From assembly GCA_019237945.1 (NCBI GenBank), contig JAFAOG010000568.1, forward strand, positions 1 through 50,590: DNA of 50,590 bases, in the 5' to 3' direction. The translations under genes were made by a program, and so were the position numbers. Origin of the DNA: Deltaproteobacteria bacterium. Lineage in GTDB: Bacteria > Myxococcota_A > Polyangia > Haliangiales > Haliangiaceae. Shown piece by piece: positions 4,766-11,337 of this stretch. Each line of letters starts with the position of its first letter. The stretch's first letter is position 1. The notes under the pieces were generated by a model, which worked only from the letters and a program-made list of their open reading frames with translations, searched no databases and was not told where the DNA came from.

Positions 4766-5242
4766 ATGACTCCCGATCTCGTGTGTGCCGGCGACGTGAT
4801 GACGCGCGAGCTGATCACCGTGACGCCGGAGACCCCGCTGCTCGATGTTCACCGGCTGTTCGTCGAGGAAGAGATCCACGGCGCGCCCGTTGTTGGCGAG
4901 GACGGCACGGTCTACGGGCTCGTCACGACAACCGATCTCGTGCGCGTGGTTCGCGACGCGGAGGACAACAACGAGCGCGTCGATGCCCTGACCGCGGCCG
5001 ACGCGATGACGCCCGATCCGATCATGGTGCCACCCGACACGTCGCTCGAGCAGCTCGCGCGCACGATGGTCGATCTGCGCATCCACCGCGTGTTCGTCGG
5101 CACGGATCGCATGCTCGAGGGCGTGGTCAGCGCCTTCGATGTCGTGCGCGTCGTCGCGGGCTACTCGTCGGAGAGCGCTTCGAGGAACGCCGCGAGATCG
5201 GCGAGATCGTCCTTCGACATGCCGAGGTCGCCGACGCGATGA
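4766..5242 (+). CDS. Tandem CBS-domain protein
   Basis: VMTRELITVTPETPLLDVHRLFVEEEIHGAPVV and AMTPDPIMVPPDTSLEQLARTMVDLRIHRVFV. Confidence 0.85.
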   Translation: MTPDLVCAGDVMTRELITVTPETPLLDVHRLFVEEEIHGAPVVGEDGTVYGLVTTTDLVRVVRDAEDNNERVDALTAADAMTPDPIMVPPDTSLEQLARTMVDLRIHRVFVGTDRMLEGVVSAFDVVRVVAGYSSESASRNAARSARSSFDMPRSPTR

Positions 5243-6201
5243 TCGATCGTCGCCGGGATCTCCGGTGCGGGCCACTGGCAGCGCGCCTGAGAATTGGCAG
5301 CGCGGCTGCACGTCGCCACCTGCATCGAGCCGACGTCGCGCGTGTTGAGGAACTCGAGCATGAACGGCAGGTTCTCGAAGTAGCCGTTGTGACCGTAGGG
5401 GGCCGTGCGCGCGACGTTGCGCAGCGAAGGCACGCGGAACTTCCCGTCCTCGGTCGGCTGGTTGACGGTCGTCGAGAGGCCGTGATCGATGAAGCTCGGG
5501 TTGTCGCGCAGGAACATGTTGTTCTCGTAGCGAGGCACGCCGACGTTGACGTACTCGAAGCTCGTGAACAGAGGCGCCGGATGGCAGCTCGCGCAGCTCG
5601 CGTTGAACAGGCGATAGCCGCGGAGCTCCTGCGCGCTCAGCGTGCCGGTGCCGGCCATGAACTTGTCGTAGCGCGACGAGAACGGGGAGAGATCGGGGCC
5701 GCGCTCGTAACTCGCGAGGGCATCGGTGATGTGCGCGAACGCGGTCTCGGTATCGTCGAGCGCGCGCGACCCGTAGACCTCGCGGAACTGCGCCGCATAT
5801 GGCGAGCGACGAACCTTCGCGACCACCGTGGCGTGATCGGGGTTGTTCATCTCGCGCGGGTTCATCAGCGGTCCCGCAGCCTGCTCCTCGAGAGACGACG
5901 CGCGGCCATCCCAGAACAAGCCGCCGACCCAGCGCCCGTCGTAGTGCAGCGGCGGGATCGCGGCGCTGTACATCGCCGTGGGCGCATTGCGGTTGCCGAA
6001 GCGACCGTCGACCGCGCCCATCGACGTCGTGCGATCGCTCTCGGGATCTCGGAATGCCTGCGTCGGGTCATGGCAGTCGGCGCACGACTGGCCGACCGGC
6101 GTCGACAGCGAGCGGTCGTTGAACAGCTGCTTGCCGAGCTGCTCCTTCGACGGTGCATCGACCGCGCAGCCCGCCACGAGCAGGAACACCCAGAACCGCA
6201 C
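5161..6201 (-). CDS. Di-haem cytochrome c peroxidase / MauG-like lipoprotein
   Basis: Two CxxCH sites (CADCH, CASCH); lipobox LVAGC; GTG start at 6201 (or 6207). Confidence 0.85.
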   Translation of the reverse strand: MRFWVFLLVAGCAVDAPSKEQLGKQLFNDRSLSTPVGQSCADCHDPTQAFRDPESDRTTSMGAVDGRFGNRNAPTAMYSAAIPPLHYDGRWVGGLFWDGRASSLEEQAAGPLMNPREMNNPDHATVVAKVRRSPYAAQFREVYGSRALDDTETAFAHITDALASYERGPDLSPFSSRYDKFMAGTGTLSAQELRGYRLFNASCASCHPAPLFTSFEYVNVGVPRYENNMFLRDNPSFIDHGLSTTVNQPTEDGKFRVPSLRNVARTAPYGHNGYFENLPFMLEFLNTRDVGSMQVATCSRAANSQARCQWPAPEIPATIDHRVGDLGMSKDDLADLAAFLEALSDE

Positions 6202-6248
6202 CTCCACAATGTGGGGCGACGGCGGCGCCGTGCAACGCGGAGATTCTC

Positions 6249-7901
6249 TCAGGGACGGTACGCGCCGATGACGCGCAATGCGCCACTTGCGGGGTCCTGC
6301 GCGACATGCACGAACGTGCGGCCTGCGAAATGCTCGCGCTGCGTCGTGATCTCGACGATCGTGTACCGGTCGCCGCCCGGCGCGAGCGCGATCGGCAGCG
6401 TGCAGGTGTGGGCGCCCGCGGCGACGGCGGCGGTGGTCGCGACGAGCTTGCCGTCGTGGTCGAACATCGAGAGGGCGTAGCTCGTGTGCTCGCTCGTGAA
6501 GCGGTACTGCAAGGCAAGGTCGTCGAAGCACACGCGATCGCGATCTGCCCGAAATCCGTCGAGCGGATTGACGCGAGCGAACCAGTACGCGCCGGTCGCG
6601 CGCTGGCGGGCGACGAGGGCATCGGTGAGGAAGTCGACCGCGCGCTTGTCGTGGTAGCGCGCCGACATCACGATCGCGCGCAGCTGCTCGCGCGAGAACC
6701 GCATCAGGATCTTCGTCGCCCAGAACGCGTCGTAGCGGTCGCGCGTCGTGAACGGGACGTAGGCGGCCGAGGTCGGGTGCCAGTCGTCGGGATCGAAGTC
6801 GGCATCGTAGGCGCCGACGCCGGGAGCCGGTGACCGGTCGCGGTCTTCCCAGTCGCGCTTCTCGATGCCGAGCGTGATCAGGCTGCGGAAGCTCTTCTGC
6901 GGATCGAGGAAGTAGTCGTAGCCGCGGCGCGGGTCCTGGCTCGTCGAGGCGAACACGCCGAGGCTCTTGCCGAAGTCGAGCAGGTAGTGGACGACGTAGT
7001 GGCGGCCGGGGTGGCGCGCGTCCTCCGTCCACATATCGATGAAGTTGCTCTCCTGGATGTCGCCGTGATCGAGCCATGCCGCGAACGTGTAGAGCCCGCG
7101 GAGCTCGCGCCGCAGCTCGTGCGGGATGCGGTCGTTGGGATCGTCGGAGCGGACGCCCTCCGCGGGATGACCACCGAGCGGCTTGCCGGCGAGCCAGTGC
7201 GAGGCGAGGGCGCGATACGAGCCGTCGGGCGCGCGCTCGATCGTCGACAGCCGGTGCTGCAGATCCTCGTTCGTCAGCGGGCGCTTGTCCTCGATCTCGC
7301 TGTCCTTGATGTACGCATCCTTCGCGAGCGCGAGATCCTCGGCGCGGAACTGCACGATGTAGTCATCGGTGACGTTGTAGCCGCACGCCCACAGGATCTT
7401 CTCGACGATCACGTGCGCGCCGGTCTCCTCCTCGGCAAAGCCGCGCGAGTCGAACTTGAGCACGAACTTCTCGCCGCGCGCGTCCTTGATGATGAAGCCG
7501 ACCTCCGCGCCGCCGAGCTTCGTGCTCTCGACGGTCCACGGCTTGTGATCCTCGGGCGAGCCGATCACGTTCGGGCCTGTCGCGAGCTCGGCGGGGGACA
7601 GGTCGTGCTGGCCGATGCGGTTGGTGAACCACGTCGAGTCGGGGACCTCGTCGAGCGCGTTGATGCCGACGGCGCGGGTCTTCGGATGCACCTCGAGCGT
7701 GCGCGTCAAGCGGCGCTGCACGAGACCGTCGTAGTGATAGACGTCCTCGAGGAAGATCCGCGGGGCCGGCGTCTTCGGGACGTCTAGGCGGTCATTGACG
7801 AGCGCGACGGCGGGGGCGTTCGCGAAGCGGGCCGCGGGCACGCGCGCCGGCGACGAGCAGGCCGCGACGGCCAGGATCGAAGCGAGCGCGAGCCGGGGCA
7901 T
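6249..7901 (-). CDS. Conserved hypothetical lipoprotein with kinase-fold motifs
   Basis: N-term lipobox LAVAAC; GEKFVLKFD; HGDIQESN; LLDFG; MPRLALAS start. Confidence 0.85.
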   Translation of the reverse strand: MPRLALASILAVAACSSPARVPAARFANAPAVALVNDRLDVPKTPAPRIFLEDVYHYDGLVQRRLTRTLEVHPKTRAVGINALDEVPDSTWFTNRIGQHDLSPAELATGPNVIGSPEDHKPWTVESTKLGGAEVGFIIKDARGEKFVLKFDSRGFAEEETGAHVIVEKILWACGYNVTDDYIVQFRAEDLALAKDAYIKDSEIEDKRPLTNEDLQHRLSTIERAPDGSYRALASHWLAGKPLGGHPAEGVRSDDPNDRIPHELRRELRGLYTFAAWLDHGDIQESNFIDMWTEDARHPGRHYVVHYLLDFGKSLGVFASTSQDPRRGYDYFLDPQKSFRSLITLGIEKRDWEDRDRSPAPGVGAYDADFDPDDWHPTSAAYVPFTTRDRYDAFWATKILMRFSREQLRAIVMSARYHDKRAVDFLTDALVARQRATGAYWFARVNPLDGFRADRDRVCFDDLALQYRFTSEHTSYALSMFDHDGKLVATTAAVAAGAHTCTLPIALAPGGDRYTIVEITTQREHFAGRTFVHVAQDPASGALRVIGAYRP

Positions 7902-8030
7902 TTTCCCGAAGTGGTGCAACCAGGATGCCGCTGTCAGCACTCCTCGTATCGCGTGGCGGCGGAGCGCGGCGTGCGCGAATGCGACGTGCGCGATCGCTCG
8001 CCATCCGCTAACCCTGTGACGGGGGGACCG

Positions 8031-8975
8031 ATGAAGAAGTGGATCATCGTGCTGGCCGCAGCCGGCTGTTCGAACACGTCGGGCAACACGACCGACACCT
8101 GTGCGGCGCTGACGCGCGCGACGCCCACCGCCATGCCGCAGTGGAGCGGCAGCGTGTTCACGATCGTCATGGAGAACAAGAGCCGCGGCGACATCCTCGG
8201 CAACAAGAGCGGGCCGTTCATCAACGGTCTCGCCAAGCAGGGCGCGCTCGCCAACGGCTATCACGACTCGTTCGTGCACCCGAGCGAGCCGAACTACCTG
8301 TGGATGGTGGCGGGCGAGAACTTCGGGATCCTCGACGACGCGGATCCGGTCAAGCACTCGCTCGACTCGTCGTCGCACATCGCGGATCAGCTCGAGCTCG
8401 CGGGATTGTCGTGGAAGGCGTACCAGGAGAGCATGGGCTCTCCGTGCGGGCTGACGTCGCACGGGCGTTACGCGGCGAAGCACAACCCGTTCGTTTACTT
8501 CAGCGACATCAACGGCTGGGACGGCAAGACGTTCCAGCCCTCCGCCCGGTGCAACGAGCACGTCGTCGACTACAGCGAGCTCGACAAGGACATCGCGGCC
8601 GGCACCGTGCCGCGCTACGTGTTCATCACGCCGAACCTCGACAACGACATGCACGACGGCTCGGTCGCGCAGGGCGATCTGTGGCTCTCGCAAGAGATCC
8701 CGAAGATCATGGCGACCGACGCCTACAAGAACAACGGCGTGATCTTCCTGCTCTGGGACGAGGGGTCGGGGACGCTCGGCCCGGGCGACGATCCGCCGTT
8801 CATCGCGATCTCGCCGCTGATCAAGGCCGGGTACACGTCGACGGCGTCGTACGGCACGTCGTCGTATCTCAAGACGGTGCAGCAGATCCTCGGCGTCGAG
8901 GACCTGCCGTGCGCGACGGACCGCAGCACGGTCTCCGCGATGACCGATCTGTTCAGCGCGCCGCTGCAGCCGTAG
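8031..8975 (+). CDS. PF04185-type phosphoesterase (acid phosphatase/phospholipase C-like), paralog 1
   Basis: FTIVMENKS..., PNYLWMVAGENFGI, ITPNLDNDMHDG, LLWDEG motifs. Confidence 0.85.
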   Translation: MKKWIIVLAAAGCSNTSGNTTDTCAALTRATPTAMPQWSGSVFTIVMENKSRGDILGNKSGPFINGLAKQGALANGYHDSFVHPSEPNYLWMVAGENFGILDDADPVKHSLDSSSHIADQLELAGLSWKAYQESMGSPCGLTSHGRYAAKHNPFVYFSDINGWDGKTFQPSARCNEHVVDYSELDKDIAAGTVPRYVFITPNLDNDMHDGSVAQGDLWLSQEIPKIMATDAYKNNGVIFLLWDEGSGTLGPGDDPPFIAISPLIKAGYTSTASYGTSSYLKTVQQILGVEDLPCATDRSTVSAMTDLFSAPLQP

Positions 8976-10281
8976 ATGGAAGCAGGCCGATGCTCGCGGC
9001 GAACATGATGCCGCCGTCGAGCGTCGAGGCGAGATCGATCGCCGCGCCGTGGCGTCCGACGAGGATGCCGCCGCCGTAGCCGACGTGGACGCCGGTGAGC
9101 GCGAACGCATCGAGCGCCGGGGCGACCCGGCCCGCGTCGACGAACAGGTGCGCGCCCATCCACGTCGCGAGGTCCCATCGGTAATCGATCGTCGCGACCG
9201 CGGCGTACCGATCGCGGAACTGGTCGAGCGCGTAGCCGCGCAGATAGAGCGGGCCGCCGAGCGAAGGTAGCTCCGGCAGCGGGACCGCCGCCGTCGACAC
9301 GCCTTCGCCGTGCAGCCGGAACGCGAGCACGCGAGGACCGATGCCGAGGCGCACGAGCTGCTCTACGTCGAGCCGCGCGCGCCAGAAGTCCGGCGCGTCG
9401 TCGAGGCGCTGCGAGCGCGCGACCGCGAGGGAGGCGGCGGTGCCGTCCGTCGGTAGCCATGCCTGGTCCCAATCGCCGGTCGCATGCTCGTTGCTCCAGC
9501 GAAGCTCGAGCTGTCCGTCGGCAGACGCGGCGTGCAGTGCGGTGCCGTCGATCGGCGACGTGTAGCGGTTGCTCGCGAGCGTTGCGCTCGGCCGCAGATG
9601 CAGCTCGTCCGCGATCCGGACGTCGCCGACGAGGTCGGTCGCCGCGCGCTTCTGCGAGAACCGCAGTACCGGCTCGCTGCCATCGCCATAGAATCCGTCA
9701 CGCGGGCGATCCTCGTAGCGGCCGTCTACCGCGAGCGCGAACGAGTCGCCGAAGCGATGGCCGCTGTCGAGCTCGACCGCGTAGAGCTGGCGGATGTAGC
9801 CGCCGGCGCCGCCCGCCGCGAGCACGCCGAGCTGCTCGTGCTCTCCGAACAGGTTCTTGGCCGCGGCATGCGCGCCGCCGGCAAATCCCGCGATCCCGTG
9901 GCCGCTATCGACGCGCAGCAGCGGGTTGATGTCGAACGCGACGCCCTTGCCGTCGCCGAGACCGCCGACCTGATGGCTCATCCGGTGGCGTCCCCACAAC
10001 GTGATCGCGCCGTGGACGGGCGCGAGCGTCGCTTCGACGAGCCACAGCACCGGCTTCGCGGCGATGCGCTCGACCTGCGTCTTCGTCGTATCCCCGTCGT
10101 CGACGACGTCGGTGCGGCCGCTCTCCTGGCCCGGCAGCGGCGCGTGATCGACGTCGGGCGGCGGTTCCTGCGCCGGCGCGACCTTCGGCGGCTCGGCCGG
10201 CGGCTGCTGCACGAAGCCGGGCTGCGCGCTCGCGACCGCGCCTGCGAGAACAACCGAGGACGCGATTCCGAAGCGAAACAC
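8953..10281 (-). CDS. BamA/Omp85-like outer membrane beta-barrel protein
   Basis: Signal peptide VFRFGIASSVVLAGAVASAQ; C-terminal barrel-like strands with LYLRGYALDQFRDRYAAVATIDYRW. Confidence 0.75.
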   Translation of the reverse strand: MFRFGIASSVVLAGAVASAQPGFVQQPPAEPPKVAPAQEPPPDVDHAPLPGQESGRTDVVDDGDTTKTQVERIAAKPVLWLVEATLAPVHGAITLWGRHRMSHQVGGLGDGKGVAFDINPLLRVDSGHGIAGFAGGAHAAAKNLFGEHEQLGVLAAGGAGGYIRQLYAVELDSGHRFGDSFALAVDGRYEDRPRDGFYGDGSEPVLRFSQKRAATDLVGDVRIADELHLRPSATLASNRYTSPIDGTALHAASADGQLELRWSNEHATGDWDQAWLPTDGTAASLAVARSQRLDDAPDFWRARLDVEQLVRLGIGPRVLAFRLHGEGVSTAAVPLPELPSLGGPLYLRGYALDQFRDRYAAVATIDYRWDLATWMGAHLFVDAGRVAPALDAFALTGVHVGYGGGILVGRHGAAIDLASTLDGGIMFAASIGLLPSTAAAAR

Positions 10282-10380
10282 GCACGTGTTCAGTGCAACG
10301 CTGATGCCTCGCTGCGAAACGTGCTGAGCCCGCACAGCGTGACATTTCTTCACGTCGGCACCTGCTATCCCTAGGACTCG

Positions 10381-11337
10381 ATGTCGGGGAAATCGATCTT
10401 GGTGGCAATGGTGTGCGCGGCCGGGTGTGCGAATACGTCCGGCAGCACGACCGAGGTGTGCACTGCGCCGAGCCGCGTGAACGCGCAGCCGATGCCGCAG
10501 TGGACGGGCAGCGTGTTCACGATCGTGATGGAGAACAAGAGCCGTCACGACATCCTGGGCAACAAGCGCGCGCCGTTCATCAACCAGCTCGCCGCGCACG
10601 GCGTGATCGCCGCCGGCTATCACGGCCCGTACGTGCACCCGAGCGAGCCGAACTACCTGTGGATGGCGGGCGGCCAGAACTTCGGCGTGCTCGACGACTA
10701 CGATCCGGTGAAGCACCCGATCACATCGACGTCGCACATCGCGAATCAGCTCGAGGCTGCCGGCCTGACGTGGAAGGCGTACGCCGAGAGCATGGGCGAG
10801 CCGTGCGGGCTCGTCTCCCACGGTCGCTACGCCGCGAAGCACGAGCCGTTCGTGTACTTCGCCGACATCAACGGCTGGGACGGCAAGCAGTTCAAGCACT
10901 CGCAGCGCTGCATCGATCACGTCGTCGACTACAGCCAGCTCGACAAGGACATCGCGGCGAACCAGATCCCGAAGTACGTGTTCATCACGCCCAACCTCGA
11001 CAACGACATGCACGACGGCTCGATCGCGCACGGCGACCTGTGGCTGTCGCAGGAGCTGCCGAAGATCATGGCGACCGATGCGTTCAAGAACAACGGCGTC
11101 ATCTTCCTGCTCTGGGACGAGGGCGGCGGCACGTTCAGCCCCGCCGACGATCCGCCGTTCATCGCGATCTCGCCGCTTGCGAAGGGCGGCTACATCTCGA
11201 ATGCGACCTACGACACCTCGTCGTACTTGCAGACCGTGCGCGCGGTGCTCGGCCTCGCCGACGTCCAGTGCGGCGCGGCGCCCAAGAAGCCCCAGCCGAT
11301 GGCCGATCTGTTCGCGGTTCCGCTCGCCGCCGAGTAA
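10381..11337 (+). CDS. PF04185-type phosphoesterase, paralog 2
   Basis: Near-colinear with 8031..8975 product; lipobox AAGC. Confidence 0.85.
   Translation: MSGKSILVAMVCAAGCANTSGSTTEVCTAPSRVNAQPMPQWTGSVFTIVMENKSRHDILGNKRAPFINQLAAHGVIAAGYHGPYVHPSEPNYLWMAGGQNFGVLDDYDPVKHPITSTSHIANQLEAAGLTWKAYAESMGEPCGLVSHGRYAAKHEPFVYFADINGWDGKQFKHSQRCIDHVVDYSQLDKDIAANQIPKYVFITPNLDNDMHDGSIAHGDLWLSQELPKIMATDAFKNNGVIFLLWDEGGGTFSPADDPPFIAISPLAKGGYISNATYDTSSYLQTVRAVLGLADVQCGAAPKKPQPMADLFAVPLAAE

Follow-up and report, generated by a model that had tools for sequence, protein, structure and literature searches.

A lipoprotein family with a predicted kinase-like fold, encoded beside an Omp85-family barrel and genetically linked to NTT-type transporters

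Introduction

Can a kinase serve a bacterium on the outer side of its inner membrane? To our knowledge, the bacterial periplasm is generally thought to be largely without ATP-dependent chemistry. According to a 2020 review, how ATP reaches this compartment is unknown (PMC7432876). The question is raised here by one gene in a 50,590-nucleotide stretch of DNA (the window, meaning the whole of this stretch), whose product was originally predicted from its letters to be a lipoprotein carrying kinase motifs. We evaluated its export signal, its modelled fold, the conservation of its putative catalytic residues and its genomic neighbourhood across relatives.

A predicted exported lipoprotein of an undescribed family

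The kinase-like gene lies at 6249–7901 on the reverse strand, with its stop codon at 6249–6251, and encodes a 550-amino-acid product beginning MPRLALASILAVAACSS. The longest mechanical open reading frame starts further upstream, at 9110; we took the ATG at 7901 as the start because of the lipobox and because homologues begin at the same place. By sequence pattern, a lipoprotein signal peptide and lipobox (VAAC) occupy 7857–7901 (reverse strand), with the acyl-acceptor Cys15 encoded at 7857–7859. Residue conservation was counted over 116 distinct family members, of which 99 match the lipobox pattern and 97 have a cysteine aligned with Cys15; several members from Acidobacteria have hydrophobic N-termini that lack the lipobox cysteine but look like a Sec-type signal. 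The predicted signal supports the assignment of the window protein as a lipid-anchored bacterial lipoprotein located outside the cytoplasm.

Searches of the window protein against Pfam, NCBIfam and PDB sequences gave no match, and a PHROGs search returned two sub-significant matches only. An A2 profile search against the PDB found no relative, a plasmid search gave no matches, and no description of such a kinase-like lipoprotein family was found in the open-licence literature. The family is nevertheless large, as well as undescribed and without annotation: the species-representative genome collection holds 434 confirmed candidate stretches in more than 8 phyla, which bears out the original statement that relatives exist in several phyla. 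Relatives occur in 32 of 144 genomes sampled from the class of the window, several of them multi-copy, and a phylum sample places relatives in other classes too. Locus comparisons used the best 80 of the 434 stretches, which correspond to 79 loci. The contig labels among these 80 include Myxococcota/Deltaproteobacteria, Gemmatimonadetes, Acidobacteria, Calditrichota, Zixibacteria, Latescibacterota, Poribacteria, Aminicenantes, Eisenbacteria, KSB1, Marinimicrobia and Bacteroidota, single labels being read with care because many are metagenome bins. The genome of the window itself holds three copies, namely the window copy (C157) and two paralogues on C64 and C407, which are 66% and 30% identical to it, respectively.

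Predicted fold and catalytic residues

The AlphaFold2 model of the window protein, for which 67 family sequences were used, has a mean pLDDT of 95.2 and a pTM of 0.93. Foldseek comparison with the PDB placed Rio2 first (4gyi, E 3e-4) and Fam20C second (4kqb, E 4.5e-4), with an alpha-kinase, DAPK, HipA (4pu3), VPS34 and ATR further down, and nearly all of the 50 matches listed are kinases. The E-values are modest and the TM-scores low (0.2–0.4), the latter as expected for a divergent core joined to an additional C-terminal beta domain, which the secondary structure of the model assigns to residues 447–548 (6258–6563, reverse strand). The model and its matches support a predicted two-lobed protein-kinase-like fold. 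A non-kinase structure, which would have spoken against the motif order first read from the sequence, was not seen.

The putative catalytic residues, all encoded on the reverse strand, are found in the 550-residue translation together with the lipobox and every other motif quoted in the original prediction. The candidate beta3 lysine is K149 (VLKFD, 7455–7457), kept in 109/116 members and aligned with the lysine of the HipA_2 profile; a Gly-rich-loop-like stretch, K128..G131..G135 (7497–7520), lies between beta1 and beta2 in the model, each of its residues being kept in 109–110 of the 116. The two motifs that follow were assigned by conservation and profile alignment. HGDIQESN, the catalytic-loop motif, falls at 7044–7067 as originally placed, with its aspartate D281 present in 111/116 members and its asparagine N286 in 105/116, replaced by Gln in 5 more. 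The metal-binding DFG lies at 6969–6977 (D309 112/116, F310 96/116, G311 104/116); the longer LLDFG quoted for that interval is also present, with a true span of 6969–6983. E157, kept in 85/116, is a less secure choice as the helix-C glutamate. Conservation further defines a family signature, R251–R268 (RSDDPNDRIPHELRRELR; 7098–7151), which runs into the helix preceding the catalytic loop and includes D254, N256, D257, R265 and R268, invariant in 116/116 members. The conservation required of the D, N and DFG residues is seen: the lysine, both catalytic-loop residues and the DFG aspartate are near-invariant (91–97% of the 116), so that the motifs do not reflect chance. H279 of HGD is kept in 87/116 only, and HGD is thus not an HRD-type invariant. 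The lysine, catalytic aspartate and DFG have been lost together in L030, L059, L060 and L061, which possibly form a pseudokinase branch.

We also compared the family with known kinase profiles. Pfam searches of 67 members gave weak matches to HipA_2 (PF20613) in 6 and to HipA_C (PF07804) in 4, with a best E-value of 0.0048; the window protein itself has no Pfam match to HipA_2 or HipA. By hhalign, the family aligns with HipA_2 proteins at an E-value of 2e-5 and a probability of 77%, and the alignment pairs the lysine, the WxxxxDxxxxN loop with its catalytic Asp and Asn, and the DFG aspartate. These profile comparisons support HipA_2 as the nearest relative by sequence among the families tested. 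The CotH comparison originally offered did not hold; membership of CotH (PF08757) was rejected, with an hhalign probability of 0.4%, unmatched active-site motifs and no Pfam match. Among the class-sample matches listed, many related genomes hold CotH kinases in abundance, with at least 22 in one genome, and no CotH gene is found in the genome of the window.

Fold, residue conservation and the HipA_2 profile link therefore support the kinase reading of the original prediction. The fold alone leaves the chemistry unfixed, and DPND..RR..R, the family signature, does not belong to the classical kinase motifs; the protein could instead transfer a nucleotidyl group, as in AMPylation, or an acyl group, with the pseudokinase-like SelO as a precedent for different chemistry on a kinase fold. 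The canonical spacing of K, D, N and DFG is retained in the family, however, and we regard a change of chemistry as quite improbable, phosphotransfer being the activity that we carry forward.

An Omp85-family barrel as genomic partner

The upstream partner gene (8953–10296, reverse strand, start codon inferred) encodes a barrel-only Omp85-family outer-membrane protein matching Pfam PF01103 at 7e-6, which reaches the Pfam cut-off. Its AlphaFold2 model (pLDDT 83.5) shows 16 strands, and the best Foldseek matches are TamA/BamA (E 7e-13), so that a 16-stranded barrel and a sequence match together place it in the Omp85 superfamily. The N-terminal POTRA domains of BamA and TamA proper are absent from the model, in which only a helix precedes the barrel.

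This arrangement is widely conserved. An Omp85-family barrel is encoded on the same strand less than 500 bp upstream of the kinase-like gene in 68 of the 79 loci, and most of the 11 remaining loci are accounted for by contig ends (L069, L075, L083, L096, L135 and L141) or by a tandem kinase-like copy between the two genes (L082 and L113). In the latter two the intervening gene was considered as a new component and rejected for that reason, the tandem copies lying behind one barrel gene; L010 also carries tandem copies. The kinase and barrel distance matrices correlate with a Spearman coefficient of 0.68 in a Mantel comparison (null maximum 0.22), a value that includes species history and so fits co-inheritance rather than proving contact. 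An apparent barrel–kinase fusion in L014/L114:1236-3965 was set aside. It is a single open frame with both halves truncated at the junction, the barrel half breaking off short of its C-terminal strands while the first 57 residues are missing from the kinase half, and is likelier to reflect a deletion or chimeric assembly than a real fusion.

Near-universal adjacency to the barrel would also be expected of a pseudokinase-like accessory lipoprotein that, without catalysis, plugs the Omp85 protein or serves it as structural partner or chaperone, and the few relatives devoid of catalytic residues fit such a role. Against this, K, D, N and DFG are jointly kept in more than 90% of a family whose members diverge to about 30% identity, and are jointly lost in the exceptions, and nucleotide transporters are linked to the family, as set out below. 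We consider a non-catalytic role improbable and retain a catalytic lipoprotein with an Omp85 partner.

Other neighbours are less constant. In the window, the barrel gene lies between two related PF04185 phosphoesterase genes of the opposite strand, one separating it from the kinase-like gene (7911–8975, forward strand; Pfam 8.2e-35) and the other on its far side (10381–11337, forward strand; Pfam 1.9e-37). They were rejected as a conserved component, just one other locus of the 79 having one nearby; a further PF04185 phosphoesterase is encoded close to the C407 paralogue (L143:9300-10346). The window gene is followed directly downstream by one for a di-haem cytochrome c peroxidase (CCP_MauG; 5164–6204, reverse strand), apparently a lipoprotein too. 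Calcineurin-like/purple-acid-type metallophosphatases adjoin the kinase-like gene in L148, L149, L101, L112, L121, L129 and L139. Neighbouring genes for two-component and Ser/Thr kinases were counted as background.

Linkage to NTT-type transporters

We counted as NTT-type transporters those proteins with TLC (PF03219), HEAT and cyclic-nucleotide-binding domains, as well as single-domain TLC-like proteins. Such transporters are encoded within 7 kb in 25 of the 79 loci, 22 of them with E<1e-20; two thirds of the loci have none within 7 kb, many contigs ending early. The single-domain profile matches the solved ADP,ATP carriers 9j3n (E 3.7e-27) and 9j3j (E 8e-21), and this homology together with the TLC match assigns the linked transporters to the NTT family, with nucleotide exchange as their predicted activity.

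In the class sample, genomes with the kinase-like gene contain 36 TLC matches, 11 of which lie less than 10 kb from it where random placement predicts 0.26, and 10 of the 11 share its strand. TLC matches are present in 24/32 genomes with the gene versus 22/112 without; the corresponding P values (6e-15 by Poisson for the distances and 1.3e-8 for co-presence) ignore shared ancestry. Several phyla nevertheless show the linkage, with differing gene orders. Inspection by eye gave a rough test of specificity, in which no CotH match among those listed is on the same contig as a TLC match.

The genome of the window has only two TLC matches, each less than 3 kb from the C64 or the C407 paralogue. At C64 the genes run in the order NTT, Omp85, kinase-like, transporter/HEAT and cNBD. 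The transporter/HEAT protein has a HEAT match above the cut-off and a sub-threshold MFS match, for which reason we call it NTT-like by its similarity to L125. No NTT adjoins the window copy, which we assume would rely on those at C64 and C407.

NTT-HEAT proteins of free-living bacteria are described in an earlier study as widespread and of unknown function; characterised NTTs are for the most part studied for nucleotide uptake, and several act in the uptake of nucleotides and ATP (PMC5381601). The barrel, phosphatases and NTTs might on this basis take in extracellular nucleotides, such as those of lysed prey, with the lipoprotein binding or rephosphorylating nucleosides or nucleotides at the membrane and no envelope modification taking place. 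The metallophosphatases in some loci and the many hosts among Myxococcota would suit such scavenging. However, the barrel has a protein-handling fold nearest TamA/BamA and is not a known nucleotide porin, and the kinase-like family occurs in many phyla. We judge scavenging unlikely, and return to a kinase acting on the envelope.

Discussion

The export signal, the kinase fold, the conserved catalytic residues and the linkage to both barrel and NTTs are supported by computation. Given a kinase core that appears intact, an Omp85 partner and genetic linkage to nucleotide exchangers, the simplest reading of these data is a kinase of the envelope that has a nucleotide supply of its own. We put the probability of an outer-membrane-associated kinase with an Omp85 partner, dedicated transporters for its nucleotide and an envelope substrate at roughly one half. 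Counting against it, the window copy has no NTT beside it and a phosphoesterase separates the window gene from the barrel gene. The loci with no NTT within 7 kb, the modest Foldseek scores, the share of species history in the Mantel correlation and the emphasis on uptake in work on characterised NTTs weigh on the same side.

These data allow us to propose a mechanism in which we infer catalysis, nucleotide identity, direction of transport, physical partnership and substrate. The lipoprotein would be an atypical kinase, exported and anchored by lipid, whose new family is a distant relative of HipA_2. It would sit on the periplasmic face of the outer membrane (or at its surface), with the barrel-only Omp85 protein as its partner. 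It would transfer phosphate from ATP or another nucleotide to an envelope substrate, either a protein or an outer-membrane lipid or glycan. The NTT-type transporters encoded beside relatives would exchange nucleotide across the inner membrane, supplying or recycling it for the kinase, and adjacent metallophosphatases could reverse or tune phosphorylation; the calcineurin-like phosphatases next to some of the kinase-like genes would fit such a reversible modification.

The scarcity of ATP outside the inner membrane had been noted as making a kinase core there mechanistically odd, and genetic linkage of the family to NTTs offers a possible answer. More tentatively, many phyla might share a system dedicated to phosphorylation at the outer membrane, in which NTT exchangers of the inner membrane fill the periplasm with ATP and a lipoprotein kinase associated with Omp85 uses it to modify proteins or lipids of the envelope; the periplasm of these bacteria would then not be ATP-free. 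The linkage provides one testable candidate for both the role of NTT-HEAT proteins and the source of periplasmic ATP, in the form of a lipoprotein kinase of the outer membrane served by nucleotide transporters of its own, and the bacterial kinome gains a large, unannotated kinase-like family.

Comparison with known systems

The family resembles HipA_2 and HipA_C in its active-site profile, and HipA (4pu3) is among its Foldseek matches. Unlike HipA_2, it is predicted to be exported with a lipobox, is much longer and carries an extra C-terminal beta domain; its partner is an Omp85 protein, whereas HipA is paired with HipB. Fam20C, the Golgi casein kinase, and other secretory-pathway kinases offer a parallel as kinases acting outside the cytosol, Fam20C being the second Foldseek match with a probability of 1.00. 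The structural alignment with Fam20C nevertheless has an identity of 9–11%, with no homology detected at the sequence level, and the protein described here is a bacterial lipoprotein in an operon with Omp85. The CotH spore-coat kinases are similar in being bacterial kinase-fold proteins beyond the usual signalling kinases. Among transporters, the NTT-HEAT and NTT-HEAT-cNBD architectures that adjoin our family are those of the earlier study, the accessible part of which mentions a cNBD neighbour only and no kinase-like or Omp85 partner (PMC5381601). Finally, barrel-only Omp85 proteins of the 'noNterm' subfamily form a class of uncertain role (PMC4104836), which the present barrel resembles in its architecture, being likewise without POTRA domains. 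The barrel described here differs from that subfamily in its conserved pairing with a kinase-like lipoprotein and in the helix predicted at its N-terminus.
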